Source of the DNA: Halomonas sp. CH40 | GTDB taxonomy: Bacteria > Pseudomonadota > Gammaproteobacteria > Pseudomonadales > Halomonadaceae | Reading direction: 5' to 3' | Assembly: GCA_041875495.1 (NCBI GenBank) | Contig: CP112982.1 | Location: forward strand, 1,550,001-1,614,000 | Length of the DNA: 64,000 bases | Part shown: positions 1 to 13,016 of the stretch, one piece after another | How the letters are laid out: each line of letters opens with the position of its first letter | How positions within the stretch are numbered: the first letter of the stretch is position 1 | Notes under the pieces: model-generated | What the model saw: only the letters and a program-made list of their open reading frames with translations | Database searches by the model: none | Told to the model about the DNA's origin: nothing | Program-made: the position numbers and the translations under genes

Positions 1-2
1 GT

Positions 3-122
3 ATCCATTTTGATCAGCTGGAGCAGGTAGACCCTGTGGCAGCGGTAGAAGTCTTCAACCTGCGTCGCAACATGACCAAGACGGGGATCTTTCGGGACAT
101 AGAGCCATTTCAGCTGGTTTAA
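3..122 (+). CDS. 3' end of an unidentified gene entering from the left
   Basis: An open frame runs in from the window edge and stops at TAA 120-122. The visible C-terminus ends [19 protein letters not shown] second, degenerate copy of this gene end lies at 3601-3710, about 90 bp upstream of tniQ. Because the element around it is a Tn7-like CRISPR transposon in which tnsABC normally precede the cargo, this could be the end of tnsC. I cannot confirm that from 39 residues, and a cargo gene is equally possible. Confidence 0.5.
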
Positions 123-137
123 GAAAGCCTGAGAGAA
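36..137. repeat. Direct repeat copy A (gene 3' end)
   Basis: About 100 bp covering the end of the left-edge gene matches 3601-3710 in the same orientation at roughly 85-90 percent identity over the best 83 bp. The similarity runs through the stop codon (TAA here, TAG in copy B) and a dozen bases beyond. The two copies bracket the XRE/helicase/AbrB block. Confidence 0.75.
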
Positions 138-575
138 ATTGAACGGCTTGATGCTCTTGGTAAAGTCCAGAATAGCTGGCAATGTACTTGGGTGATAAAA
201 CTCGTTGAGTTCTCCATTGATTGCAGAAAACTGCTTGTTTATAGACATAAAATACGCAGATCTTCGGCCTTGAGGATATACACACCGTGAAAGACAAGTC
301 AGTTTCTGCTTATAGCACCTCAATGGGAGTGCGTTACGTGAGAGTTCACGGGCTCCCTGAAGCATTTCAGAGAGGTTTTGAATAAGCGTCTGTGACGTGA
401 AGCATGGCAACTCGCATTCAAGCTCTTTGTTACGCCACCGACCAGCAGCTTTGGTTAGTGGCGCTGGCGGCTGGGCAATAACGTTACACTATAGAATAAC
501 GTTACACTATAGAATAACGTTACACTATAGGGTGGTGGGTGCCATGAGCTGAATTTATCCCTATGAAGCACGTCA
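123..575. other. Gene-poor stretch with short ORF remnants
   Basis: I see no convincing gene. Two short plus-strand frames exist (GTG at 287 to stop at 385, 32 aa; ATG at 404 to stop at 481, 25 aa), without recognisable similarity or clear ribosome-binding sites. The notable feature is the triple 18-bp repeat at 477-530. Confidence 0.5.
477..530. repeat. Three perfect tandem 18-bp repeats
   Basis: The unit AATAACGTTACACTATAG occurs three times without mismatch (477-494, 495-512, 513-530). Each unit contains two palindromes, TAACGTTA and CTATAG. It sits just beyond the 3' end of the minus-strand XRE gene. The phased palindromic design resembles iteron or operator arrays rather than coding DNA. 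Confidence 0.85.
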
Positions 576-809
576 TCACTGCCCAGCACGTAAAATAGCC
601 TTGGAGGGCAGCAGGGAGGCTGGCTCGCATTGGAGAACTGCAGCGATCTCATATAATTTTTCTACAGTAATATTAACTTCTCCTCGTTCGATTCTTCCTA
701 CATAGCTACGGTCGATGCCAGCAGCTAAAGCAAAGGCTTCTTGTGAATACCCTGCCATTTTTCGTTTTTCTCTGATATTTCTTCCTAGAGCCGTCGCTAG
801 CTCACCCAT
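576..809 (-). CDS. Small XRE-family helix-turn-helix regulator
   Basis: The 77-residue protein is almost entirely one HTH_3 domain. NIREKRKMAGYSQEAFALAAG (approximate residues 11-31) followed by DRSYVGRIERGE is the standard Cro/C1 fold, and the size matches restriction-modification controller proteins. The start is supported by an AAGGAGA ribosome-binding site a few bases upstream on the minus strand. It is divergent from the winged-helix/helicase pair at 921, so the 810-920 gap probably holds both promoters. XRE regulators are known in I-F3 CRISPR transposons, where some control tniQ-cas and guide expression. Whether this one does so is inference. Confidence 0.85.
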   Translation of the reverse strand: MGELATALGRNIREKRKMAGYSQEAFALAAGIDRSYVGRIERGEVNITVEKLYEIAAVLQCEPASLLPSKAILRAGQ

Positions 810-920
810 ATCCGCCCTATCTCCTTTTGGGCGGGAATATCCTTCGTTGCGGCTTATCTAGCCACAGTCTATAATCCGCAAAATGAACTGTAGTCCTTTT
901 TATGGCTGATTCTTATCACG

Positions 921-1550
921 GTGATCGTTATGCCAGCTCCATCCCCTTCGATTGATCGACGTATCTTCGAGCTCCTTTTGGAGCAAGAAAATTCGCATTT
1001 CACTGTTCGTGGTATACGGGATCAGTACGCAGAGCGATATGGGATTGCGAAAAACGATAGGGCAAAGCTAAGGAGCTTCCTATACGAAGGCATCAATAAA
1101 CTGCTTCGCGTTGGTGCCGTACAGCAAGATGAGCAAAAGCGGAAAAGGGATCAGGTTTACCACGTGTTGCCGACCATCCATGACACGCCAATTAACTGGG
1201 ACGGTGAACGCTTTGAGGCATGGCATAAAAGACAAAAATCTTCTTCAAAACAGAAGGCGCTGAGCGTAATTACTGCTACTGATTTGATCAGTAATGAAGA
1301 AGATAGTAAAGAAAACGATGATATACATGAAAGTCGTAACCTTGCATTGGAAAAAGAGCTTCTAGAAACCCAGAGCGAGTTTCTGTCTGCTATGGGGGAA
1401 ACGGAAAAATTTCGCCATCTGATGACTCAGTACCCTGACTTGCGGTCAAGCTTTGACAGTGATCATCGCGAGGCCTATGAACGTAGTGCTCGCCTCCTTG
1501 GCAGCGTCCGTGCTTTAGAAAAATCACTACAGCGATTAAGGGGAACATGA
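921..1550 (+). CDS. Winged-helix/coiled-coil protein of unknown function
   Basis: Protein of 209 residues with a GTG start; an in-frame ATG at 930 is an alternative. Residues about 5-80 look like a winged helix (RRIFELLLEQENSHFTVRGI, then a recognition helix and a basic wing with KRKRDQ). The middle is low in complexity and acidic (NEEDSKENDD). The C-terminal third is heptad-rich and likely helical. The stop overlaps the ATG of the helicase gene by 4 bases, implying translational coupling and a joint function. I do not recognise a named family. Confidence 0.75.
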   Translation: MIVMPAPSPSIDRRIFELLLEQENSHFTVRGIRDQYAERYGIAKNDRAKLRSFLYEGINKLLRVGAVQQDEQKRKRDQVYHVLPTIHDTPINWDGERFEAWHKRQKSSSKQKALSVITATDLISNEEDSKENDDIHESRNLALEKELLETQSEFLSAMGETEKFRHLMTQYPDLRSSFDSDHREAYERSARLLGSVRALEKSLQRLRGT

Positions 1551-2902
1551 AAAAGCCTCTACGCTCATGGCAGGAAGACTGCCTCACATCAGCAAAAGAG
1601 CACTATCTTCGGCATAGTGATTTTTTCGTCCAAGCAACACCAGCAAGTGGAAAAACGCGACTGGCAGCCGAAATTGCGCGCTGGCTGCTCGCAGAAAAAC
1701 GTATCGATTTCGTTGTTTGTTTTGCACCGACCAGAGAAGTGGTAGCCGGTATACAGCGAACGTTTGCTGAGGTATTAAAATCACGCTTTGGTGATGCGTT
1801 AGCCTCAGTAGGCGCGGCCTATACCTACCAATCTATGGAGTATCAGCCTGAGGAATTCTGGGCGTTATTCGAGCAGTACGCCATATTGGTCGTCTTTGAT
1901 GAGATTCATCATTGTGCCGGACATGACCCACTGTTGAGTAATGGGTGGGGTCAACAGATACTCCTGCGAATTCAGGACAATGCTCGCTACACTCTGGCGT
2001 TGTCAGGAACACCTTGGCGTTCCGATGAATTGCCGATTGCCTTGGCACGATATAGTGATCCAGAAGGTAAGTTGATCTGTGATTATCGCTATGATCTTCA
2101 AGCGGCTGTTCAGGATGGTGTATGTCGTTCGCCACGCATTACGTTAGTTGATAACTTACTGATTCATCTAACTGAGGAGACTGAGACTACAGCATCAGTG
2201 AAGGCATTCTCATCCTTCCAGCAGCTCCTGGGAACATCACCCATCAGTTACGAAGATCTATTACGGCATGATGACGTTTTGAACGCAGTACTGGATATGA
2301 GTATTGAAAAGCTCAGCCATGTGAGACAGCGTGTGCCCAACGCAGGTGGACTCGTCGTAGCAACTGATATTGAGCATGCCCATCAAATTGCAGCGCTTTT
2401 ACGCGATAGAAGTGAAAGTTTTGTGGTTGTCACTAGCCAGACACCTGGAGCGCATCAGCTAATTGATCAATTTCGGCATAGTGATACCCGTTGGATTATT
2501 GCCGTCAGCATGATTTCAGAGGGTACTGATATACAACGGTTGTGTGTATGCGCGTATCTCAGCAGAATCCGCACGGAGTTGCATTACAGGCAGGTGTTGG
2601 GGAGGATCCTGCGAAGGATGGGCATTATAGATGACGCTGCATGGCTCTATGTGGTTGCCGAGCCTCTGCTACGACAATATACTCAACGCATTGCAGACGA
2701 TCTGCCTGATGATCAGGCGACGCTTCAGGTTCAAAAGCTGAATCAACGTCTAAAGAAGGTAAGATCTGGCCAAGAAGCATCAAACGATGAGCAGTGCTCG
2801 CAACAGGACTCAGAACAGCATGAAATGCCCTTTGATGAACCACCCTTGCTGACCCTGAGCTTCTCAGAGCACTATCGTCAACAATTGTTAGCATTAATAT
2901 GA
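1547..2902 (+). CDS. SF2 DEAD/DEAH-box helicase
   Basis: The 451-residue protein has all main superfamily-2 motifs: Walker A as ATPASGKT near residue 30, motif II as DEIHH, motif III as SGTPWR, motif V as SMISEGTDIQ and motif VI as QVLGRILRR. Two RecA-like domains account for nearly the whole length, leaving only a short charged tail, so there is no fused nuclease. It belongs with the ResIII/DEAD-like group used in many defence and restriction systems. It is coupled to the upstream winged-helix gene (ATGA overlap) and lies in the cargo of the CRISPR-associated transposon. A defence role is inference from context. Confidence 0.9.
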   Translation: MKKPLRSWQEDCLTSAKEHYLRHSDFFVQATPASGKTRLAAEIARWLLAEKRIDFVVCFAPTREVVAGIQRTFAEVLKSRFGDALASVGAAYTYQSMEYQPEEFWALFEQYAILVVFDEIHHCAGHDPLLSNGWGQQILLRIQDNARYTLALSGTPWRSDELPIALARYSDPEGKLICDYRYDLQAAVQDGVCRSPRITLVDNLLIHLTEETETTASVKAFSSFQQLLGTSPISYEDLLRHDDVLNAVLDMSIEKLSHVRQRVPNAGGLVVATDIEHAHQIAALLRDRSESFVVVTSQTPGAHQLIDQFRHSDTRWIIAVSMISEGTDIQRLCVCAYLSRIRTELHYRQVLGRILRRMGIIDDAAWLYVVAEPLLRQYTQRIADDLPDDQATLQVQKLNQRLKKVRSGQEASNDEQCSQQDSEQHEMPFDEPPLLTLSFSEHYRQQLLALI

Positions 2903-3194
2903 TGCCAACCTCTCGCAAAATCACTTTGGAAGGTTTTGGCTATGACTTACTCTGCCTCATAGCTAAGCAGACCCTTTTAACTGATGCTGTGGAAATGCCG
3001 AAGTGCTCATCGGTCGCCCTAATACTGGCGTTACTGGAATACTGAAACAATCCCGCTTACTGTGAGGGTGGTGAGCACTGATCTTCCAACCACATAGAAA
3101 AAGTGCCATGTCGACCACGAAGCTATGGAATTTCTTGACCCGGTTAACGCCTTACCCTTAAGTAGGAATAACACGTTTTGCTACTCGGAGAGAG
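2903..3194. other. Intergenic stretch, no gene seen
   Basis: Roughly 290 bases between the helicase and the AbrB-type gene. No open frame of credible length or composition is present. An AGGAG-like site near 3187 serves the gene that starts at 3195. Confidence 0.5.
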
Positions 3195-3437
3195 ATGGCT
3201 ACGGCAACGCTTACGTCGAAAGGGCAGGTCACGATTCCTGTTCAAGTTAGGGCTTCATTAGGGCTTGACTCAGGGGATCGCATTGAGTTTGTGGAATTGG
3301 AAAAAGGGCAGTATGCCATCATTGCTGCTACCCATTCGGTAAAAGACCTGAAGGGCATGATACGCACCCCAGCTAATCCGGTGAGCATTGAGGATATGAA
3401 TGCGGCAATTGCAGTGCACGGAGCTAGTACACGATGA
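3195..3437 (+). CDS. AbrB/MazE/SpoVT-type antitoxin
   Basis: The 80-residue protein begins MATATLTSKGQVTIPVQVR, the classic swapped-hairpin AbrB DNA-binding domain (TSKGQVTIP). The C-terminal half normally wraps the toxin in VapB-type antitoxins. The start has a good ribosome-binding site (GGAGAGAG). The stop overlaps the ATG of a downstream frame beginning like VapC, the usual vapBC arrangement. The toxin is truncated (see 3434), so the antitoxin is an orphan. Confidence 0.9.
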   Translation: MATATLTSKGQVTIPVQVRASLGLDSGDRIEFVELEKGQYAIIAATHSVKDLKGMIRTPANPVSIEDMNAAIAVHGASTR

Positions 3438-3490
3438 TTGGTCTGGATATCAACGTATATTGGTTTGATGTGTGTCACAAGATGACCTAG
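3434..3490 (+). pseudogene. Truncated vapC (PIN toxin) remnant
   Basis: The frame begins MIGLDINV, matching the VapC N-terminus in which the Asp is the first PIN-domain metal ligand. It diverges at once and stops at codon 19, against about 130 residues for the family. It starts inside the stop of the antitoxin gene, as in intact vapBC operons. The rest of the toxin is not found downstream. Confidence 0.7.
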
Positions 3491-3802
3491 TTCAATCTCC
3501 GAAGGCGACTGACTCGATCGAATTGTTAGCAGCTGTGGAGCCAGGCTTCATCGCCATGGTTTCGGGTGTGTAGCTGGTATGGGTGCTTCAGAGCTGCCTT
3601 GTTGCAGCGGTAAAGGTAAAGATAGAGGCCTTCAGTCTGCATCGCAACATGACCAAAACGAGGATCTTTCGGGATATAGAGCCATTTCAACTGATTTAGG
3701 AAAGCCTAAAAGACCTGCATAGTAGCTTCTATTGCTAAAAAGTGTGTATTTGAGCTAGTTTGCTGCTATATCTTGATAAGCATTACTTAGCAAAGGGTTG
3801 CT
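3491..3802. promoter_or_regulatory. Region upstream of tniQ holding repeat copy B
   Basis: No gene. It contains the degenerate gene-end repeat at 3601-3710, then about 90 AT-rich bases before the tniQ ATG at 3803, which presumably carry the operon promoter. A GGGTTG stretch just upstream is a weak ribosome-binding site. Confidence 0.5.
3601..3710. repeat. Direct repeat copy B (degenerate gene 3' end)
   Basis: Matches 36-137. Its frame still ends [18 protein letters not shown] before TAG, but the upstream part is interrupted by stops, so it is a remnant. Lying just before tniQ, it suggests that the gene ending at 122 was once directly upstream of tniQ, and that the block between the copies was gained by duplication or recombination. 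Confidence 0.75.
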
Positions 3803-3912
3803 ATGAAACTACTTATTAGGCCTGAACCATATAGAAATGAATCGCTTGAGAGCTACATGCTCCGTTTGTCACAAGAAAACTTCTTTGAATATTATCAACA
3901 GCTTAGTCGAGC

Positions 3913-3920
3913 TATAAAAG
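3913..3920. repeat. Target-site duplication TATAAAAG, left copy
   Basis: The 8 bases before the ISL3 element recur exactly at 5270-5277 after it. Eight-base duplications are typical of the ISL3 family. Perfect identity points to a fairly recent insertion. Confidence 0.95.
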
Positions 3921-5269
3921 GGCTCTTCGTCGTTGGGTGTGGAATTCGCCCCCTGAGCTGAGCCAGAATATTGCCTCCATATTAGCAGGAGGTACGACAT
4001 GGACGGCACCCAGATTTTAACACTCGGCCTTGGCCTGGAAGCGCCCTGGATTCTCAAGGATCAGCACCTGGATACCGCTGCGTCGCCTCACCGCCTGGAG
4101 CTGTATGTCGAGGCGGAGCGTGGCAGCCTCTATCCCTGTCCAGAGTGCGGTAAGGCCTGCCAAGCCCACGACTTTGCTGACAAAACCTGGCGACATCTGA
4201 ACTTCTTTCAGCACCATTGTTACTTGCATGCTCGCGTCCCTCGTACAAAGTGTCCTGAACATGGCGTCAAACGCATAAAGGTGCCCTGGGCGCGGCCCGG
4301 CAGTGACTTTACCCTGTTGTTCGAGCAGGCGGCCATGTCGCTCGTCAAGGAGATGCCAGTGCTGGCTGTCTCCCGGCAGTTGGAGATTTCCGACAAACGA
4401 CTATGGCGCATCGTGCACCACTACGTGAACCGCATGCTGGGAGAGCTGGATCTGTCCAATGTGACCATGGTTGGCGTGGACGAAACCGCGTCCCGACGCG
4501 GGCATCGTTACGTCACCGTGTTCCTCGATATGCAGCGCAAGCAGGAACCGGTGATTTTCGCTGTTCCAGGCTGCGGCAAGGACACCATCAAGGCGTTCAG
4601 TGCCTTCCTGGCGGCTCATGGTGGCGATGTGGACAATGTGGTCGAGGTTGTCTGTGACATGTCACCTGCTTTCCTTAGTGGCGTCACCGAGTCTCTTCCC
4701 AAGGCGGAGGTAACGGTCGACTGGTTCCATATCGTGCAGACCTTCACCAAGCGACTGGACGAGGTGCGCAAGAAAGAACGCCGCGAGCAGAAACACCCCA
4801 AGTCGCTGCGCTGGGCACTGTTGAAGAGCCTGGAAAATGAGAACCACACACCTAAACAGATATCGGCACTTCAGGAGCTGGTTGCCGATCAGAGCGCCAC
4901 GGCCGATGCTTGGGTGATCAAGGAAAAGTTAAGCTGGATCCAGAAAGCGTCAACGCCCAGGGCAGCGCGTTGGCGGATCACGAACTACCTAAAAATCATG
5001 AAAGCAGCAGTTTCTGAGAAGCCTCTACTGAAGCCGATGGGGAAAGCGCTGGAGACACTTGAGCGACACGCTAAAGCGGTAGTCAGGCGCTGGCACTCGG
5101 GGCTGACAAACGCGCGACTAGAAGGAATGAACGGCCTGTTTCAGGCGGCTCGTTCACGTGCACGGGGCTACCGAAATGAAGCTAATTTCATTGCTATGAT
5201 TTACCTGATTGGTAGCCCGGTGGGCCGCCTGCTTGATCAGGCCAAATCCACATGAAATGACGAAGAGCC
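3921..5269 (+). mobile_element. ISL3-family insertion sequence, 1,349 bp
   Basis: The ends are inverted repeats: GGCTCTTCGTC at the left and GACGAAGAGCC at the right, with partial pairing extending to about 26 bp (TGTGGA-containing). A single transposase gene fills the element. It is intact by length and flanked by a perfect 8-bp duplication within tniQ. Confidence 0.95.
3999..5255 (+). CDS. ISL3-family transposase
   Basis: The 418-residue protein has an N-terminal zinc finger (CPECGK, then CPEHG), a helix-turn-helix region and a DDE catalytic domain. Catalytic candidates are the VDET motif near residue 160, the Asp in CDMSPAF, and a C-terminal Glu in NARLEGMN. An AGGAGG ribosome-binding site lies about 7 bases before the ATG. 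Length and motifs match complete ISL3 transposases, so the element is probably still mobile. Confidence 0.95.
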   Translation: MDGTQILTLGLGLEAPWILKDQHLDTAASPHRLELYVEAERGSLYPCPECGKACQAHDFADKTWRHLNFFQHHCYLHARVPRTKCPEHGVKRIKVPWARPGSDFTLLFEQAAMSLVKEMPVLAVSRQLEISDKRLWRIVHHYVNRMLGELDLSNVTMVGVDETASRRGHRYVTVFLDMQRKQEPVIFAVPGCGKDTIKAFSAFLAAHGGDVDNVVEVVCDMSPAFLSGVTESLPKAEVTVDWFHIVQTFTKRLDEVRKKERREQKHPKSLRWALLKSLENENHTPKQISALQELVADQSATADAWVIKEKLSWIQKASTPRAARWRITNYLKIMKAAVSEKPLLKPMGKALETLERHAKAVVRRWHSGLTNARLEGMNGLFQAARSRARGYRNEANFIAMIYLIGSPVGRLLDQAKST

Positions 5270-5277
5270 TATAAAAG
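5270..5277. repeat. Target-site duplication TATAAAAG, right copy
   Basis: Exact match to 3913-3920. It marks the right boundary of the ISL3 insertion in tniQ. Confidence 0.95.
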
Positions 5278-5288
5278 ACTGGCTACAA

Positions 5289-6398
5289 TTGCATGATCAC
5301 GAAGCAGCAGGAGCCTTTCCAGAAGAGTTGTATCGTTTGAATGTTTACCACTCGGCGCAGAGTAGCAGCCGACGCATCCGAGCGCTCAAACTCGTTGAAT
5401 CGCTGACTGATAATGAGCAGCTTCCACTGTTACACCTGGCGGTAGTGCATTCCAGCGAAAAGTTTAGTTCACGTTATGCCAGTTTTTTTTATGCAGGTAG
5501 CCACATTCCAAGAGCGCTGGTTCGCAAAAAGGGGGTGCCGGTTTGTCCTGATTGTCTCAGTGAGTTGAATTACATACGGCAAGAGTGGCACTGGATTCCA
5601 TATCAAGCGTGTATAAGCCATGGCAAACAGATGCTTCACGTGTGTCCAAAATGCGAAGAAGGAATAAATTACACCTATTCCGAATGTTTGCATACTTGCC
5701 GCTGCGGATATGATCTCCGTAACGCAGAAACAGATATTGCAGACGAATGGCAACTGATCGCGAGTCGTCTAGTAGTGGGAGAGTACGCACCTTCAAGACA
5801 TCCGCTGCTAGCTATCCGAACTATCAGCTTACGACTAGCATGTCTGCTTTGGTATCAGCTATATACATATAAGATGCTTGATGATGGCGATCAGGTACCT
5901 GCTCACACTATCGAGCAGGCAATTGAGTATTTTACGCACTGGCCTGAGGTATTTACAGGCGAGCTAGAAGAACAAGCTGCACTTGCGGGCGACAGGTTGG
6001 TATGTGATTTTAATAAAACGTCATTTCGTCATATTTTTGGCGATGTTATTAGCATTTCACGACTAATGCTCAAGCGTTGTCCAGAAGGAGATTTTGTACT
6101 GGCGCCCTTAGAAGGTTTTTTATCTAGACTAGTTGACCAAAACCCGAAAAGCCGTGTACCTAATGCCGCCGATCTACTGATCAGTACGTCAGAGGCAGCA
6201 ATTCTGCTTGGTACATCGTTTGAGCAGGTGTGTCGCTTATACCAGGAAGGGTATTTGAAAATTGCGGTCAGGTTGAAGTCACACGAAAAGCTAATTAACG
6301 GAATAGGTGTTTTTTATTTAAGGGAAATCATAGAGTTACGTCAATCACGAATGCCGATAGAAACAGATATTTACAATAATTATTTACCAGCGTGGTAA
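5289..6398 (+). CDS. tniQ: 3' fragment of TniQ, possibly expressed from TTG
   Basis: This open frame of 369 codons contains TniQ residues from about 44 onward, including the zinc-finger cysteines (VCPDCL, VCPKCEE, TCRCGYD) and the C-terminal helical domain. It is the part of the split gene that could still be translated, starting at TTG 5289 or by fusion from the IS. No good ribosome-binding site is seen. It precedes cas8f-cas5f by 4 bases, so it still anchors the tniQ-cas operon. Confidence 0.7.
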   Translation: MHDHEAAGAFPEELYRLNVYHSAQSSSRRIRALKLVESLTDNEQLPLLHLAVVHSSEKFSSRYASFFYAGSHIPRALVRKKGVPVCPDCLSELNYIRQEWHWIPYQACISHGKQMLHVCPKCEEGINYTYSECLHTCRCGYDLRNAETDIADEWQLIASRLVVGEYAPSRHPLLAIRTISLRLACLLWYQLYTYKMLDDGDQVPAHTIEQAIEYFTHWPEVFTGELEEQAALAGDRLVCDFNKTSFRHIFGDVISISRLMLKRCPEGDFVLAPLEGFLSRLVDQNPKSRVPNAADLLISTSEAAILLGTSFEQVCRLYQEGYLKIAVRLKSHEKLINGIGVFYLREIIELRQSRMPIETDIYNNYLPAW

Positions 6399-6402
6399 CG
6401 CT

Positions 6403-8469
6403 ATGTCTTTTCATACAATGTTGGAAATTGCTGAGCCAAACCGCTCAGAAGCGATTCGCAAAGCCTTCGCTCCATACACGCCACTATTAGAGGTCTCTTG
6501 CAATACGGAGGCTGCTGTGGTGGTGCTCCTTAATTTATCGCATAAGCGACAAAGCGTACCAGAGGTATTAGACAAAAACAGAGCAGCTGCCACGCTCAAA
6601 GACTGGAAACATATTGAAAACTGTGCACAAGAGGTACAATGGCTGCATTCGCATAATTTAAAGTATCCCGATACCCGAGTAGCGCATCAAAGACTACTAT
6701 TAAAAGCTGAGAAGCCTTCGGCAAATGTTGTTTCTTCATTTGATAGTGTTAGCTGTTTGGGCTGGTCACACAACTCGGCAGCTGTTAATAAAGCAAAGCT
6801 GTTTGGAACACAATTTAAATTTTACGGCATACCATACTGCTTAGCTACCATCATTTTAGATAACAATCAGCGATGGTGGGAAGAATTAAAAAAACTTGGT
6901 ATGTCTGATGACCAATGGATTTACCTTCAGTCACTTTTTGATTCTTACTTCAACACAAATATAACACCCTCTTCTGTGGATAGGCGCTCTGTACAGGTCA
7001 CTTTTTTTTATCAGGGAAAAGATATTAGTATCACACCTGTCGTATCAAATTCATTATTGACTGAGATTCAAATTTCTCGTCGTCAAAAAAACGGAAAATT
7101 TTCAAAAATAAAACATTGGCATCCTGCAAGCGTTGGAGATTTAGTTTCATCCTTAGGTGGCCATGTCTCTGCACTTGATTACCCACCTTTTTTAAATTCC
7201 AGGCAAAGATACAAAAAAGGAGTTAATGTAAGCTTTGTTGATAAAGTAGACATTGACTTTTATCACCGTGCTTTAAAAAGCAGAGCCTTTATTTCAGCCT
7301 GCTTGAATATTATTGAAAGCAAAAATATACTTACAAGTAAGGAAAGAAAAGACTACCGTCGCTCTGCCATTAAGTTGCTAAGCCAATCCTTGACTGAATG
7401 GCTTTCACCAATCATTTATTGGCGAGGCATGGAAGGCGAATCAAATGAAGGAGAGGGAAGTGATATAGCAATCCTTTTAACTTCTGCTTCTGATGAAAGT
7501 TTGCTTGAAAACCTATCTGAGCTTAATCGAGAACTGCACAATGCTTTGATTAAAAATCCAAGGACACAGAGCCTTGCTTATCATCCAGATCTTCTAATTC
7601 CTTTCAAATCTCAGCTAAAGGTTTTGCTGAAGGGGTTGAAAAAACAAGAAGGCGAATATCTAGTTGAAGAGTCTTTTTGTTATCTTCACTTGAAAAATGT
7701 GCATGTATTCGATGCACAAGCATTATCTTGTCCTTACCTAGTGGGTTTGCCTTCATTGATGGCAGTATGGGGAACAGTCTATAACTATCAGTTACGCTTA
7801 AAAAACCTTCTTGATCGGAACATTGTGATTGACGGAGTTGCCTGGTTTCTGCGGCAATATGAGTTCTCCTCTGGTGCTCAAATACCTGCTCCTTACCTAC
7901 CACCAGCCAAGCCTGGTGAGGCTCCAAAAAGACCGGGTCTCATTGATATGCGCTTTTGCGATTTACGGATGGATTTAGTTATTCGTTATCGGCTAGAGGA
8001 TGGGCACGATATCTCGCTAAAAGATGACGACTTGCCTATGTTGCAAGCTGCCTTTCCAAGCAGGTTTGCTGGTGGGACTATGCAGCCGCCACCGCTTCAC
8101 CAAGATGTGCACTGGTGCCAATTGCATCGTGATGCTTCAAGCTTATTTGAAGCTATATCACTGTTGCCGGTCGATGGACGATGGATTGTCGACTCCGATG
8201 ACCAGGTAGAGAAGATTGATAGCTTGGTGGCATGGCTGTCAAAGCATCCTAATCACTTACCTGCTTTGAGTGGCTATCAGTTGCTGGAGGTTCCATGCAG
8301 TCGACAGGGGGCGCACCGGCATTTGCATGCCTATGCCGAGCCGCTTGTGAGTCTTGTTGAGACGGTTTCACCCATGAGTTTTAGGCTTAAAAGTCAGACT
8401 TATTTTCTAAAAAACGCATTTTGGAGATTGAAAAGCCAGAACTTGACTATGCTGATGAAGAAAATCTAG
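6403..8469 (+). CDS. cas8f: Fused Cas8f-Cas5f (Csy1-Csy2 fusion) of a type I-F3 Cascade
   Basis: A protein of 688 residues. In canonical type I-F the large subunit and Cas5 are separate genes. A single long fused protein between tniQ and cas7 is the hallmark of the I-F3 transposon variant. The N-terminal part fits the Cas8f PAM-recognition and helical region. The C-terminal part, including HRHLHAYAEPLVSLVETV near the end, fits the Cas5f domain that holds the crRNA 5' handle. It starts 4 bases after tniQ and ends 13 bases before cas7f. Base composition is AT-rich (long A and T runs), unlike the later chromosome. No nuclease subunit follows, so the complex would bind but not cut. Confidence 0.92.
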   Translation: MSFHTMLEIAEPNRSEAIRKAFAPYTPLLEVSCNTEAAVVVLLNLSHKRQSVPEVLDKNRAAATLKDWKHIENCAQEVQWLHSHNLKYPDTRVAHQRLLLKAEKPSANVVSSFDSVSCLGWSHNSAAVNKAKLFGTQFKFYGIPYCLATIILDNNQRWWEELKKLGMSDDQWIYLQSLFDSYFNTNITPSSVDRRSVQVTFFYQGKDISITPVVSNSLLTEIQISRRQKNGKFSKIKHWHPASVGDLVSSLGGHVSALDYPPFLNSRQRYKKGVNVSFVDKVDIDFYHRALKSRAFISACLNIIESKNILTSKERKDYRRSAIKLLSQSLTEWLSPIIYWRGMEGESNEGEGSDIAILLTSASDESLLENLSELNRELHNALIKNPRTQSLAYHPDLLIPFKSQLKVLLKGLKKQEGEYLVEESFCYLHLKNVHVFDAQALSCPYLVGLPSLMAVWGTVYNYQLRLKNLLDRNIVIDGVAWFLRQYEFSSGAQIPAPYLPPAKPGEAPKRPGLIDMRFCDLRMDLVIRYRLEDGHDISLKDDDLPMLQAAFPSRFAGGTMQPPPLHQDVHWCQLHRDASSLFEAISLLPVDGRWIVDSDDQVEKIDSLVAWLSKHPNHLPALSGYQLLEVPCSRQGAHRHLHAYAEPLVSLVETVSPMSFRLKSQTYFLKNAFWRLKSQNLTMLMKKI

Positions 8470-8482
8470 ATAGGCCAACGCA

Positions 8483-9529
8483 ATGAACTCTTTCAAACAT
8501 CTTAGCTACGAGCGGTCTCTTAACCCTGGCAAAGCGGTCTTTTACTATCGCACTGATACGAGTGATTTTGAGCCGCTGCAGGTAGAAGTGACGAGGCAGC
8601 GTGCGCCCAAGGGAACGTTTAGTGACGGCTACACTTCATCTGGGGCTGCACGTGCTAGAGAAACGAGCAGTTTGGGGTTTTCGAACCCAATCGTGATTGA
8701 AACCTGCTATGTACCTCCTTTGGTAGATACCTTATATTGTCGTTTTTCTTTACGAGTCACTTCTAATAGCATAGGGCCAAATATTTGTGATAATAAAGAT
8801 GTTGAAAAAGCATTAAGAGACTTCTCTGAAGCTTATAAAAGTGTGGGCGGTTATCAAGAACTAGCTACTCGGTACGCCAAAAATATACTTTCTGCAGAAT
8901 GGCTGTGGAAAAATAAGATTTCAAGAGAAGTAAATGTTGAGGTGTCTACATCTAACCTTAAGAAATACTTCGTCAAAGATATGCAATATAAAGAATGGAG
9001 GTCTTCGTGGGATGGGGACGATCTTGCGTCATTAGAAGGACTTGCATCTGAGCTTGGGGAATCACTTTCTTGTCAAAAAAAATATCTTTTTGTTGATGTA
9101 AATGCCGCTATAAAGACTGAGTTCTGCCAAGAAATATTCCCTAGTCAGCTATTTGTTGATAAGGATGAAAAAGGTAGCGGAAACCCAAGTAAGCAATTTC
9201 TAAAAAGCACAATGAAAGATGGCCGGCAGTCCGTTAGTTTTGGCGCTTATAAAGTGGGTGCAGCAATTCAAAAGATTGATGATTGGTGGTTAGATGAAGG
9301 AGCAGAATATCCATTAAGAGTGAGTGAGTATGGTTCAGATCGTAGTCAAGTTTTAGCTATGCGTGAACCTACCACTGAAAAAGACTTCTATTCTTTATTG
9401 CAGAGAGTTGAGAATATCACGAAAGACATCCAGGCATCTGGGCAGGCCAGTTCTAATGCCCACTATATAATGTCAGTGTTGGTAAAGGGTGGTATGTTCC
9501 AAAAAGGGATAAAGAGGGATGAAAAATGA
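8483..9529 (+). CDS. cas7f: Cas7f (Csy3), Cascade backbone subunit
   Basis: The 348-residue protein begins FKHLSYERSLNPGKAVFYYR, characteristic of Csy3, the subunit that polymerises along the crRNA spacer. The length agrees with I-F Cas7 proteins (about 330-350). The start lies 13 bases after cas8f-cas5f, and the stop overlaps the cas6f ATG by 4 bases, so all three genes are co-translated. It has the same AT-rich composition as its neighbours. Confidence 0.95.
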   Translation: MNSFKHLSYERSLNPGKAVFYYRTDTSDFEPLQVEVTRQRAPKGTFSDGYTSSGAARARETSSLGFSNPIVIETCYVPPLVDTLYCRFSLRVTSNSIGPNICDNKDVEKALRDFSEAYKSVGGYQELATRYAKNILSAEWLWKNKISREVNVEVSTSNLKKYFVKDMQYKEWRSSWDGDDLASLEGLASELGESLSCQKKYLFVDVNAAIKTEFCQEIFPSQLFVDKDEKGSGNPSKQFLKSTMKDGRQSVSFGAYKVGAAIQKIDDWWLDEGAEYPLRVSEYGSDRSQVLAMREPTTEKDFYSLLQRVENITKDIQASGQASSNAHYIMSVLVKGGMFQKGIKRDEK

Positions 9530-10134
9530 GATATTTTTTGCATATAAAGTATATCGCGCCTGAAGCCAATCATGCTTTTGTAGCAGGCAAGTGTATTGCT
9601 TGCCTGCATGGCTTTATGAGCCTTTCTAAAATAACAACGGCTAGCATTGGTGTTACGTTTCCATCCTGGAGTACAGATGCGATAGGAAATTCAATTGCTT
9701 TCGTGAGCAAAGATATTAATGCCTTATCATACATATCATCTGTGCAATATCTTAAAAATATGGCTAATGAGGGATTTGTTGAAGTCAGTGACATTGAGCT
9801 GGTGCCTACTGAAGCAGAAGAAGTGAGATTCATTCGTAATCAGCATGTTGCTAAGTCCTTTCCCGCTGAGGTTAAAAGGAGGTTAATTCGTGCCAAAAAA
9901 CGAGCTGAACAGCGCGGTGAGCCATTCATGCCAAGTGATATTGTCTCGAACCGCATAGTTGATCATTACCATGTGATTCCTATGGATAGCCGGTCATCAG
10001 GTCAGCGTTTCGCATTATATGTCCAGCGTGCGACACTCGATGGAAAAAGTGGGCAGGGCAGCTACAACAGCTACGGTCTTGCTACGCACCATAAACATTG
10101 CGCCTCAGTACCTAGCTTGCAACAAATAACCTAA
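9526..10134 (+). CDS. cas6f: Cas6f (Csy4), crRNA-processing endoribonuclease
   Basis: A 202-residue protein. The N-terminal ferredoxin-like fold carries His28 in ACLHGF, matching the catalytic His29 of Pseudomonas Csy4. The C-terminus has an arginine-rich RNA-binding helix (VKRRLIRAKKRAEQR) and a Cas6f-type SYNSYGLAT segment. The enzyme cuts at the 3' base of the repeat hairpin and stays bound as the Cascade head. It is the last operon gene, and the array begins about 120 bases later in the same direction. Confidence 0.95.
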   Translation: MRYFLHIKYIAPEANHAFVAGKCIACLHGFMSLSKITTASIGVTFPSWSTDAIGNSIAFVSKDINALSYISSVQYLKNMANEGFVEVSDIELVPTEAEEVRFIRNQHVAKSFPAEVKRRLIRAKKRAEQRGEPFMPSDIVSNRIVDHYHVIPMDSRSSGQRFALYVQRATLDGKSGQGSYNSYGLATHHKHCASVPSLQQIT

Positions 10135-10257
10135 ATCTTTGTTGGCTAATTATTTTCACTGATATCAATCGGTTATATGTTAGGCGTTAAAAAGGGGAAA
10201 TTTAACGTTTTCATTTTATCCAATTGATATCTATAGTCTAAATACTAGCTATGGCTA
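10135..10257 (+). promoter_or_regulatory. CRISPR leader
   Basis: An AT-rich stretch between cas6f and the first repeat. It contains an inverted repeat GATATCAAT (10162-10170) and ATTGATATC (10223-10231), and -10-like TA-rich sequence just before the array (TATAGTCTAAATACTA). The array promoter most likely lies here. Confidence 0.55.
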
Positions 10258-10576
10258 GTGAACCGCCGCATAGGCAGCTGAAAAAAACGCGCCTAATTCC
10301 GAAATAGAGACTTTTCGGTGAACCGCCGCATAGGCAGCTGAAAAAATGCACTGAGTGGGATGCGAGAACTGCATTGCGTGAACCGCCGCATAGGCAGCTG
10401 AAAAAGGTTATTCCGGAGGAGGGGGGAGCTTCATCACGTGAACCGCCGCATAGGCAGCTGAAAAAGCGTTAACGCTCGACAGCCTGCCGATAAACGAGTG
10501 AACCGCCGCATAGGCAGCTGATATAAGGACTGGAAGCAAGCAACGGTAATGATATACCGCCGCAAGGCAGCTATGG
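10258..10576 (+). CRISPR. Type I-F3 CRISPR array, five repeats plus a degenerate sixth
   Basis: 28-bp repeats start at 10258, 10318, 10378, 10438 and 10498 with exact 60-bp spacing, giving 32-nt spacers at 10286-10317, 10346-10377, 10406-10437 and 10466-10497. The repeat begins GTGAACCGCC and ends GGCAGCTGAAAAA. The first four copies are identical. The fifth changes its 3' end to GGCAGCTGATATA. A sixth unit at about 10552-10576 retains only ACCGCCGCAAGGCAGCT, with one loop base deleted. Diverged terminal repeats around the last spacer are known from I-F3 transposons, where they mark the self-homing guide. In every copy the stem pairing CCGCC/GGCAG contains one C-A mismatch. Confidence 0.97.
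10526..10557 (+). other. Putative homing spacer resembling the SRP RNA gene ffs
   Basis: The sequence after the fifth repeat starts AGGACTGGAAGCAAGCA. The conserved apical part of bacterial 4.5S/SRP RNA reads AGGTCCGGAAGGAAGCA. The mismatches are at positions 4, 6 and 12, and the next base differs at 18. Every sixth base is flipped out of a type I crRNA duplex, so mismatches at 6, 12 and 18 would be tolerated. ffs is an established I-F3 attachment site. The exact 3' limit is uncertain because the following repeat is degenerate. Confidence 0.65.
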
Positions 10577-10580
10577 TTCT

Positions 10581-10614
10581 ACACCCTCCAAGATTTCTTG
10601 GAGGGTGTGTTTTT
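10581..10614 (+). terminator. Rho-independent terminator after the CRISPR array
   Basis: A perfect 12-bp stem ACACCCTCCAAG / CTTGGAGGGTGT with a 4-base loop, followed within two bases by a T run. It would end the array transcript just after the degenerate repeat. Confidence 0.9.
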
Positions 10615-10619
10615 AAGAA

Positions 10620-11405
10620 GAACCACAGATGTCCGTGAAGAGCCAAGGCGGTCGCTGCTGGTGAACATCCTGTTGGACGATCTGGACAAGGAGTTGGAAC
10701 GCCGCGGTCACCGCTTCTGCCGCTACCCCAATGACGCTCAGGTGTACATCAAAAGTCGGCGAGCAAGTGAGCGTGTTATGGGCAGCTTTAGTGAGTATAT
10801 CGAGAACTCACTCCGGCTAACGGTCAATCGCCGCAAAAGTGCTGTGTGTCGACCATGGAAACGCAGCTATCTGGCCTAAAGTTTTACTCGGAACAAGCAG
10901 CGGAAGCTGAAGTTAGCCAAGACAAACCTACAGCATATGATACAACGTGTCCGGCAGGTGTTAAAGCGTGGTAGTGGCCATCACATCCAGCAAGTGATCA
11001 AAGATTTAACGCCTATCTTGCGAGGCTGGAAAAATTACATTGGTTTCGTTAATGTGGAGCACCCGTTGGAAACTCTGGATTAAATGGATACGAAGGCGCT
11101 TGCGTAGCCTGCTCTGGCGGCAATGGAAACGTCCAGAGACCCGCTGACGGAAACTCTGAGGCCTAGGTCTGGAGGCGTTGGAAATCGGCGGGTAATGGAC
11201 GAGAGCCCTGGTGTAACACCGGAGCCTCGCACAGGGATCATGCCTTGCCGAGAAAGCGATTTTACGATCAGGGACTGATATCGATACTCGATATTGTAAG
11301 GTGGCTCAAACGTTGTTCATGAACCGCCGTGGTATGGAATCGTATGCTCCGTGGTGTGAGAGGATAGGGAAGGCGACTCCCCTTCTTACCCGATTTGTGC
11401 TAAGT
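10620..11405 (+). mobile_element. Remnant of a bacterial group II intron
   Basis: The segment holds the 3' half of an intron-encoded reverse transcriptase followed by a structured tail. The tail at about 11320-11395 (GAACCGCCGTGGTATGG, then CTCCGTGGTGTGAGAGG) fits bacterial group II intron domains V-VI, and the intron probably ends near CTTACCCGAT at about 11395. The 5' ribozyme and the first part of the reading frame are missing. Lying right after a terminator hairpin is what class C introns prefer, but the class is not certain. Confidence 0.75.
10640..11190 (+). pseudogene. Group II intron reverse transcriptase/maturase fragment
   Basis: The readable part contains NILLDDLDKELERRGHRF, then RYPND where active enzymes have RYADD, then VNRRKSAVCRPWKR. 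A stop at 10876-10878 and frame changes follow. Downstream frames still encode maturase (domain X) pieces such as LRGWKNYIGF and IRRRLRSLLWRQWKRP. The missing palm motifs, mutated catalytic centre and internal stops show it is dead. Confidence 0.85.
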
Positions 11406-11471
11406 GAAAGCTATTTTGAAAATGGGCTGGTTTGCTCTTAAAAGACCAGTCGGGGCAATGAATACCCACTT

Positions 11472-11978
11472 TCACACCACACCGCCACATTCCATAGAGA
11501 GGAGTAGACGCCGAACCTGTTTGGCCTCGATATCAGTACCACAGAGCATGACAGGCGCCTGTCCTCCCAGCGCTTCGTTCGAACTAGACATCCAGTCGAT
11601 CGTTGCCAGCTTGTCCTCGAATACCTCCATCGCAAGGTAACTTACGGTCGCAACCCTATCAAGACGTTCTGATGCCACGGAGTCCAGGTTTTTCCCTTCA
11701 CGTCTGCGTCGGTGAACCGCGGAGACGGACACATTGAGCAATGTCTTAACCTGCTTATCCTGTAGCTGAAAGGTCTCTCGCACTGCTAGGAATAACGTTG
11801 GTGACAGGCCCACCTGGATACTTTTTAAACGCTCAGACTCTTTACACATTGTTTGGGCTGTAATGAACCGCCAGAACTCTGCTGTCCATATTTCACGCTT
11901 ATTACTCCTAGCTTTATGAAGCGAGGTTGGTGATTCTGACATAAGTTGCCTTGTCAAGTGGTGGTTATGAAGATCCAC
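11472..11978 (-). CDS. Xre/MbcA/ParS-type antitoxin (DUF2384), orphan
   Basis: The 168-residue protein has an HTH-like middle (LLNVSVSAVHRRRREGK) and a C-terminal toxin-binding segment near residues 130-168 (DWMSSSNEALGGQAPVML, then ending LLLSMECGGVV). This matches antitoxins of RES-domain toxins, with the sequence W-x4-N-x-ALGG-x2-P typical of the family. The RES toxin should follow within a few bases on the minus strand. The DNA there runs into the group II intron remnant and holds no RES gene, so the toxin has been lost. Palindromes upstream of the start probably serve autoregulation. Confidence 0.7.
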   Translation of the reverse strand: MDLHNHHLTRQLMSESPTSLHKARSNKREIWTAEFWRFITAQTMCKESERLKSIQVGLSPTLFLAVRETFQLQDKQVKTLLNVSVSAVHRRRREGKNLDSVASERLDRVATVSYLAMEVFEDKLATIDWMSSSNEALGGQAPVMLCGTDIEAKQVRRLLLSMECGGVV

Positions 11979-12129
11979 ACGAAGCGGAGTTGGATAACAG
12001 CATGTAGCAACTGTTTCTAGTTGAAGTGTAGCCTGTATCCCATGGTTGGTTATGCTCGCGAACTATGTTTTTGGGTATCGGGTTGGTCTATGTCGATTTT
12101 TTTCAATTTTTTAAACACCGTCTCTCGCC

Positions 12130-12200
12130 ATGTTTATTGCGTAAACATAGATACACTAAAACATGTTTTTATATCGAAATTTGAAGAGAATATAAACATG
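12130..12200. promoter_or_regulatory. Operator-like inverted repeats upstream of the orphan antitoxin
   Basis: ATGTTTA-5 nt-TAAACAT lies at 12130-12148, and CATGTTT (12162-12168) with AAACATG (12194-12200) forms a second pair with the same half-site. The shared ATGTTTA half-site, 150-220 bases upstream of the antitoxin start, suggests binding sites for that HTH protein or for a neighbouring regulator. Confidence 0.5.
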
Positions 12201-12686
12201 ATATGGTGGCCAGATCAGCCATATAACCAGTTTTCCTTTTGAGCGTTTCATAGCTGAATTCAACGAAAGTCATAAGGCACCCATCTGAGTGGAATATTCA
12301 GCAGTTTTTGATCATGTGCTACGACCAAGATCTGATTGTTAAGATGTTTTTTTATGACGTTATTTTATTACCAAAGAAAATGGTCGTTTTATTTTATGTC
12401 ATTTAAAAGTGGAAAAATTATGCCATTTTGTGGTGGATTTCCTGGTTTAAGTGACTGTTTTTTCATTCTGGTTATGTCAGATTGAAGTGGAAACGACAAT
12501 TTATGCCCCTCGAATTATCCCCTTTTCTTTATGCCGTCCTGATACCCAGATGACGAAGCTGCTTTTATGCGGCCTGCTGATGCGATCCTGCCAATCAAAT
12601 TGCCTTTTTGTTCAGCTATAGGACAATGGTGTTTTCCCTCACGTGCGTTTACCGTTTGATTATTATGGTGCAGGTATGGGGGTGGC
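12201..12686. other. AT-rich non-coding stretch with repeated TTATGCC-like boxes
   Basis: No gene is supported. Boxes of the form TTATG(C/T)C in one orientation occur near 12394, 12418, 12472, 12500, 12529 and 12564, with a related TTATTACC at 12365. Some are spaced about 23-35 bases apart. Clusters of direct ~20-bp repeats containing TTTATG-type cores are how TnsB sites look at Tn7-like ends, so this may be the right end of the CRISPR-associated element. No precise end or duplication can be assigned. Confidence 0.35.
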
Positions 12687-13016
12687 ATGAAAAGTCCGGT
12701 TCCAGGTCAATTGAAAGCCGCTAGGCTAGCAGCGGGTATGACACAAAGGCAGCTTGGGGAACACCTCGGGATGGAGCCGAATCTGGCGAGTGCACGCATG
12801 ACGCAGTATGAAAAAGGGCAACATTCGCCCAAGTTTCAATTGCTGAAGAGGCTGTCAGACATTTTGGATGTGCCAGTAACGTACTTTTACTGTGAAGATA
12901 ATACGGCGTCTAAGCTGACTATGGGGCTGCATAGATTGGATGACAAGGAGCGCCAACAGCTCTTACAGGATCTTCAAAAACGCTCGTCCAGCGACAGCGA
13001 TTCTTCTGACGCCTGA
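12687..13016 (+). CDS. XRE-family transcriptional regulator
   Basis: A 109-residue protein. Residues about 6-65 form a clear HTH_3 domain (LKAARLAAGMTQRQLGEHLG, then ARMTQYEKGQHSPKFQLLKRLSDILDVP). The C-terminus is a short acidic/serine tail (KRSSSDSDSSDA). A GGGGGTGG ribosome-binding site precedes the ATG. It heads the more GC-rich chromosomal DNA and is followed by two small membrane-protein genes. The target is unknown. Confidence 0.9.
   Translation: MKSPVPGQLKAARLAAGMTQRQLGEHLGMEPNLASARMTQYEKGQHSPKFQLLKRLSDILDVPVTYFYCEDNTASKLTMGLHRLDDKERQQLLQDLQKRSSSDSDSSDA

Follow-up and report, generated by a model that had tools for sequence, protein, structure and literature searches.

Type I-F3 systems and the locus under study

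For the Tn7-like transposons associated with clustered regularly interspaced short palindromic repeats (CRISPR) of type I-F3, the attachment (att) sites given in a review are guaC and yciA in I-F3a, and ffs and rsmJ in I-F3b (PMC11406308). At ffs, the signal recognition particle (SRP) RNA gene, the protospacer-adjacent motif (PAM) is TC in 96.6% of cases according to one paper (PMC12774636), which also identifies 7U5D as the A. salmonicida complex. For a Shewanella element, an insertion 48 bp downstream is described in another (PMC12452197). The locus described here lies in Halomonas sp. CH40, whose genome (G000) is a single contig of 3.67 Mb. The window, the whole stretch of 64,000 nucleotides (nt) that was analysed, corresponds to G000:C1:1550001-1614000, and its base 1 is G000:1550001. 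Among the main texts of open-licence papers on I-F3b or defective elements, no paper on this element was found.

The locus very probably derives from a CRISPR-associated Tn7-like transposon of the I-F3b branch that has become defective and immobile; its Cascade genes are intact. A fused cas8/5 with cas7 and cas6 but without linked cas1 or cas2-3, Tn7-like ends with a 5-bp duplication and a guide to the att site are all present. It is classed as a defective derivative, and not as a complete member, because neither an intact tniQ nor a full set of tnsA, tnsB and tnsC was found.

Cas operon and CRISPR array

A first-pass annotation had placed four genes and a short array at 3803..10614 of the window, in a Halomonas-like chromosome, and the open reading frames (ORFs), profile matches and repeats are indeed there: tniQ, fused cas8f-cas5f, cas7f, cas6f and a five-repeat array. 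The features are as follows (window coordinates; E, expectation value; IS, insertion sequence).

3803..3920, + strand: tniQ 5' piece, ATG at 3803; 90% identical (tblastn) to residues 2-42 of TniQ of relative G243; weak Pfam TniQ match, E 0.004
3921..5269, + strand: ISL3-family IS in tniQ, 1,349 bp; transposase 3999-5255, NF033550 E 9.6e-91
3913-3920 and 5270-5277: 8-bp duplication TATAAAAG around the tniQ ISL3
5270..6398, + strand: tniQ 3' piece, residues 41-415 of the TniQ of an intact relative; PADLOC TniQ_IF E 1.1e-125
6403..8469, + strand: cas8f-cas5f fusion, complete ORF, 688 aa; PADLOC Cas85f E 4.9e-247
8483..9529, + strand: cas7f (csy3), complete ORF, 348 aa; PADLOC Cas7f 1.5e-83; TIGR02566 E 1.6e-61; in the I-F3 clade of the tree
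9526..10134, + strand: cas6f (csy4), complete ORF, 202 aa; PADLOC Cas6f 9.8e-36; TIGR02563 E 2.7e-26
10258..10525, + strand: CRISPR array, four ordinary 28-nt repeats with 32-nt spacers, then an atypical repeat
10498-10525, + strand: atypical repeat, ending GATATA
10526..10557, + strand: terminal guide to ffs, 22/32 bases identical to the protospacer G000:1510791-1510822, PAM CC
10557..10580, + strand: truncated terminal repeat with a Cas6-type hairpin, 39 nt from the upstream stem end to the hairpin

The repeats start at 10258, 10318, 10378, 10438 and 10498, with a period of exactly 60 bp, and a terminator-like hairpin ending near 10613 follows the terminal repeat. The description of one tight operon stands for cas8/5, cas7f and cas6f, which are uninterrupted, but not for tniQ, which is split by the ISL3 copy at 3921-5269. 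The absence of cas1, cas2 and cas3 from the window was borne out: the resident Cas1 and Cas2-3 used as tblastn queries gave no match at E 0.01 in the element plus window, and a family search of the whole genome found a single Cas1 copy, outside the window (G000:397596-398327). Nor do cas1 and cas2-3 lie just beyond the window, an outcome that would have spoken against I-F3; they belong to a distinct I-F1 locus at a distance of about 1.15 Mb. The cas region itself occurs only once in the host genome.

From the tniQ 3' piece through cas6 the GC content is 42.5%, against 54.9% for window 12499-64000, so the operon is AT-rich as annotated. The 51.6-kb element as a whole has 52.2%, however, and its flanks have 54.9 and 56.1%. 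Because the value of the entire element is near that of its flanks, the low GC marks the cas operon and not the island.

In a search against phages, two of the four ordinary spacers gave no match, and the other two matched only in part (a Streptomyces phage, E 0.9, and a Klebsiella phage, E 0.3). Exact patterns leaving every sixth base free found 0/4 in viral contigs. Against plasmids, only spacer 4 matched (1/4, E 0.02). This spacer (10466-10497) shares 28/32 bases with the Halomonas qaidamensis plasmid NZ_CP080628.1, with PAM GC.

Element ends, insertion site and terminal guide

The Tn7-like element measures 51,636 bp (G000:C1:1510863-1562498), and the module of the window occupies one of its ends.

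1..12498, no strand: in-window part of the element; both ends located, ATTTA directly outside each
12394..12498, no strand: array-side transposon end, repeated motifs resembling TnsB sites, terminus ...AAACGACA; same terminus in the ends of sister elements
12499..12503, no strand: ATTTA 5-bp target duplication, partner copy at G000:1510858-1510862

At 12394-12493, three repeated end motifs were found where 0.04 were expected, a flattering figure since the pattern was written from this same sequence. The far end of the element adjoins ffs (Rfam RF00169, 69.9 bits). In G245, a genus relative without a Cas7f match, ffs continues straight into sequence like the right flank of the window, which resembles an empty site.

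The terminal spacer is directed at this ffs: 22/32 bases are identical, the PAM is CC, and the element begins 40 bp past the protospacer. Among 476 sites within 150 bp of the element ends, the ffs protospacer is the best, the next reaching 16/32; with 20,000 shuffled spacers at the fixed ffs site, the maximum was 19. The protospacer is still intact after the insertion.

The same arrangement recurs in the genus. Eight relatives in the genus have Cas7 of this kind. In 8/8 the atypical repeat is present, the guide is nearly the same (27 or 28 identical among the first 29 bases), and the element end that bears tnsA lies 40-41 bp past an ffs site flanked by CC. Matching 5-bp duplications were seen in five of the eight (G267, G243, G229, G225 and G242); in the remaining three, the end pattern used did not locate the array side of the element. 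In G213 and G233 the two element ends are on different contigs. The two elements read from other genera (G145, G110) end their arrays with different spacers, and the search next to their tnsA turned up no ffs core. In G242 (L069:13767-14475), a second TGTCG end and a broken tnsA directly follow the array-side end, as if elements were tandem-stacked at ffs.

Assignment to the I-F3b branch

A total of 275 family genomes were searched for Cas7f. A Cas7f-like match at E 0.001 was obtained in 90, and 13, the host included, reached E 2.5e-88 or better. Sister elements at ffs are present in 9 of the 81 genus genomes sampled, host counted. The Cas7 tree has 40 rows (22 in the I-F3 group and 18 I-F1), none of them shorter than the cut of 250 aa. 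Rows L011, L012, L023 and L025 carry the tag 'IF1cand' as a script default and all fall in the I-F3 group; L023 and L025 are duplicates of G145 and G110. The window groups with the Vreelandella elements (96/94, then 100/100) within the I-F3 group, which is split by 100/100 branches from the I-F1 rows, the host's own I-F1 Cas7 among them. Linkage to cas1 and cas2-3 was checked for one of the 18 I-F1 rows, the locus of the host genome itself. The first-pass identification as a type I-F3, Tn7-like module in a Halomonas-like (Vreelandella) chromosome is borne out, and the phylogenetic outcome that would have told against it, Cas proteins grouping with I-F1, did not occur in the Cas7 tree.

The nearest solved sequence is 7u5d (Cas7 E 3.5e-92, TniQ E 4.1e-88), followed by 30ga (6.3e-87 and 1.2e-69), whereas the 6lnb/6v9q chains score about 5e-40 (Cas7) and 4e-21 (TniQ). 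Pairwise identity and these PDB scores favour AsCAST as a relative. The locus has both the ffs att site and the atypical repeat expected of I-F3b. Judged from sequence, the module is I-F3, most probably of the b branch, an assignment that follows mostly from site, repeat and similarity.

Loss of the transposition genes

The ISL3 copy interrupts tniQ after about 40 codons, and the Pfam TniQ match of the 3' piece begins only at profile position 78. A TniQ family search of the genome returned both halves (E 1.7e-6 and 0.004) plus one match at E 0.59. At the non-array end of the element, residues 1-75 of the 207 of TnsA are left before the gene runs into another ISL3 copy, which an IS66-type element has interrupted in turn. 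On the two sides of this ISL3 the bases are unmatched, which is consistent with a deletion that removed the remainder of tnsA together with tnsB, tnsC and xre. The Pfam TnsA model is silent in the host genome but equally so in 14 controls, which makes it uninformative. With the G243 proteins as queries, neither tnsB nor tnsC gave a match in the complete host genome at E 0.001, although the same queries in the same runs were positive in six of six other genomes used as controls. With the threshold raised to E 1, TnsB still had no match in the host genome and TnsC a 9.5-bit one only.

The first-pass claim of the exact gene set of RNA-guided transposition therefore fails: with tniQ broken, tnsA truncated and tnsB and tnsC not found genome-wide, there is no autonomous transposition gene set. 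Looking left of the window, where tnsA, tnsB and tnsC had been expected, yields 75/207 residues of TnsA and nothing of the other two. The ISL3 copies in tniQ, in tnsA and in the I-F1 locus are 99.7-100% identical, and for this reason the damage looks recent. In the relative G225, tnsA is likewise cut by a relative of ISL3 (86% DNA identity) and tnsB is split, with tniQ and cas intact.

Proposed history and alternative explanations

The anatomy suggests that the ancestor inserted at ffs by RNA-guided transposition, using Cascade with the ffs guide, TniQ, TnsC and TnsAB. A recent burst of ISL3 would then have disabled the element; the structure is seen, and from it we infer the order of events. 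Presumably the missing part of tnsA was deleted along with tnsB, tnsC and xre, next to or between IS copies. The genes still present would at most yield CRISPR RNAs and a Cascade lacking TniQ, able to bind DNA but neither to cut nor to transpose, and the preserved ends could move only with compatible TnsABC and TniQ from another element.

Several observations weigh against this history. The likeness of G245 to the right flank is just 69% over 129 bp. The identity between guide and ffs is modest taken alone, another site reaching 21/32 in the 144 kb scanned. A shorter tniQ product of 369 aa, predicted from a TTG at 5289, may be made, with the start of the TniQ domain missing. Highly diverged tnsB and tnsC, or a transposase supplied later, may also be compatible with the sequence. 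As to the branch, support for the fork with AsCAST is poor (82/49), and the tree program issued a warning that long branches meet.

A working autonomous I-F3 transposon, as implied by the first-pass annotation, would account for the complete Cascade operon, the ffs guide and the intact ends, yet it is highly improbable given the split tniQ, the truncated tnsA and a complete genome in which tnsB and tnsC were not found; it would need an assembly that is in error at both IS junctions and has missed tnsB and tnsC. Mobilisation in trans, with TnsABC and TniQ provided whenever a related element enters the cell, is unlikely: the ends resemble those of intact sisters, and elements of this kind sit at ffs in enough genomes of the genus (9/81, host counted) for an encounter to occur, but the target site is already occupied, no compatible TnsB or TnsC was found in the genome, and there is no second copy of the cas region. 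Decay of a canonical I-F1 locus has hardly any chance of being correct. The Cas5, Cas6 and Cas7 families are common to I-F1, but the fused cas8/5, tniQ, transposon ends and ffs guide are not explained by it; it was rejected on the Cas7 tree, with its 100/100 branches, and on the 34.3% identity between this Cas7 and the host's own I-F1 Cas7.

Domestication of the TniQ-less Cascade for another task, for example to exert guide-directed repression on plasmids or at ffs, appears improbable. In its favour, cas8/5, cas7 and cas6 are uninterrupted and have a low ratio of nonsynonymous to synonymous substitutions against relatives (dN/dS about 0.07-0.24), a comparison that does not test present function; spacer 4 resembles a Halomonas plasmid, and the ffs protospacer survived the insertion. 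However, the tniQ piece is equally constrained (dN/dS 0.06-0.11) and the ISL3 copies are nearly identical, so the low dN/dS pre-dates the damage, which may be too recent for this measure to tell. Moreover, TniQ is needed for a complete R-loop according to the review (PMC11406308). A related proposal, which also takes in the short guides, is that a stand-alone, non-cutting I-F3b Cascade without TniQ and TnsABC persists with a guide to the SRP RNA gene of its own host, and that the guide of this Vreelandella lineage, 39-41 nt long and not 45, would lead to a shorter Cascade and thereby fix the unusual spacing of 40-41 bp in the mobile relatives; we regard it as quite unlikely. A defective, immobilised I-F3b element thus remains the preferred reading.

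Guide length, PAM and spacing

Unit length was counted between the end of a repeat's stem and the hairpin that follows. Ordinary units have 45 nt in the four of the window and in seven read from relatives. The terminal ffs unit has 39 nt in the window versus 41 nt in the eight relatives. Elsewhere, the terminal units measure 45 nt in AsCAST and V. penaeicida, 46 in S. xiamenensis, L011 and L012, 47 in Photobacterium and 31 in Vibrio THAF190c; as the last value shows, short terminal units are not unique to the genus. A spacing of 40-41 bp together with a CC PAM is found in 9/9 elements, window and relatives combined, against the published 48 bp for the Shewanella element and the TC that prevails at ffs. 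The shortened terminal guide, the CC PAM and the 40-41-bp spacing are possibly variant features of Vreelandella elements.

Cargo, neighbouring genes and the I-F1 locus

The left cargo includes two antiporter-type NuoL/M-like subunits, a protein with a heavy-metal-binding domain, PAS-GGDEF proteins, a KaiC-like ATPase, an ADP-ribosylglycohydrolase-like protein and a methyltransferase-HNH protein. Similar stretches at window 1-170 and 3600-3710 (by eye: ...CGCAACATGACCAA...) flank a 209-aa gene and a helicase cargo gene. Between the array and the element end lie two further features.

10598..~11100-11400 (3' limit approximate), + strand: remnant of a group II intron reverse transcriptase/maturase, TIGR04416 E 5.8e-15, ORF 10598-10879
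11472..11978, - strand: orphan Xre/ParS-C antitoxin-like gene, NF049845 E 9.4e-23

The intron remnant sits directly 3' of the array terminator, and a Shewanella xiamenensis plasmid element (L107) has a whole ltrA downstream of its array. The antitoxin-like gene is present at full length, at the same place and 83-85% identical, in three of the eight relatives (G243, G229, G207) and partially in G267 and G233; no RES toxin gene was seen beside it.

An extension of the element past 12498, to include the xre regulator at 12687-13016, was considered and rejected, as the ATTTA duplication and the G245 site place the end at 12498. This xre lies 188 bp beyond the array-side end; over 106 aa it has 67% identity to the xre found after tnsC in sister elements. 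A similar xre occurs in G237, which lacks a Cas7f match, at about 290 bp past ffs (L092). The gene may be a trace left by an earlier element, or else a regulator resident in the chromosome.

The I-F1 locus (G000:397518-408013) encodes Cas1f, Cas2-3f, Cas8f, Cas5f, Cas7f and Cas6f (PADLOC), with an array of 33 repeats at 408115-410063. Its 32 spacers found had no match to the element at E 0.05, and there were just two right-flank matches (18 and 14 bases). An ISL3 copy 99.9% identical to that in tniQ lies between cas2-3 and cas8f (G000:402666-404015, L061:6666-8015; duplication TTTTAAGG) and may alter the expression of the locus. Of the nine genus genomes that carry this I-F3 type, three (G000, G207, G267) show a second Cas7 match, which is I-F1-like.

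Comparison with known systems

The element is ordinary as a kind and useful as a case. It shows how a CRISPR-associated transposon can fail, with ends, guides and Cascade kept and the transposition genes lost in a seemingly recent IS burst, and intact sisters at the same ffs site allow comparison. In addition, an I-F3b guide and its CC-flanked target in the host coexist here naturally with a complete I-F1 system, and the private guides of the lineage are shorter than its ordinary ones by 4-6 nt. Two questions can thus be put directly: whether guide length sets the insertion distance, and how the guides stay private from I-F1.

The closest elements are the intact Vreelandella ones of I-F3b type (G243, G229, G267). 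They share the ffs site with its CC PAM, a near-identical guide, a repeat ending GATAT[A/T] and matching ends; identity to G243 is 81% for the TniQ 3' piece, 76% for Cas7, 69% for Cas8/5 and 68% for Cas6. Unlike the window, they retain tnsA-tnsB-tnsC-xre and an unbroken tniQ, and their terminal unit has 41 nt instead of 39. Among sisters, the xre protein after tnsC is 100% identical in six elements (0-4/318 bases differ; L062, L064, L066, L068, L071, L073, L075). Compared with G243, the elements of G207, G213 and G242 have tnsB only 49-52% and tnsC 65-66% identical, but tniQ 92-99%. The identical xre next to divergent tnsB and tnsC thus suggests that tnsABC blocks are swapped, with a crossover before xre.

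AsCAST (Tn6900), which we take to be carried by the A. salmonicida plasmid pS44-1 (NZ_CP022176.1), is of the same tnsABC-HTH (helix-turn-helix)-tniQ-cas8/5-cas7-cas6 kind. Its identity to the window is 43% for the TniQ 3' piece, 44% for Cas7 and 36% for Cas8/5, and its terminal guide also starts with AGGACTGGAAG. In contrast to the window, it has a complete gene set, is plasmid-borne and has a terminal unit of 45 nt. The I-F3a system of V. cholerae type (Tn6677), compared through PDB chains only (6lnb/6v9q, presumably the V. cholerae complexes), has the same architecture of TniQ and fused Cas8/5 and is more distant (Cas7 E 5.1e-40 vs. 3.5e-92 for 7u5d). The host's own I-F1 system shares the type I-F effector families with the module but differs in its Cas1f and Cas2-3f, its unfused Cas8f and Cas5f, and its repeat sequence.

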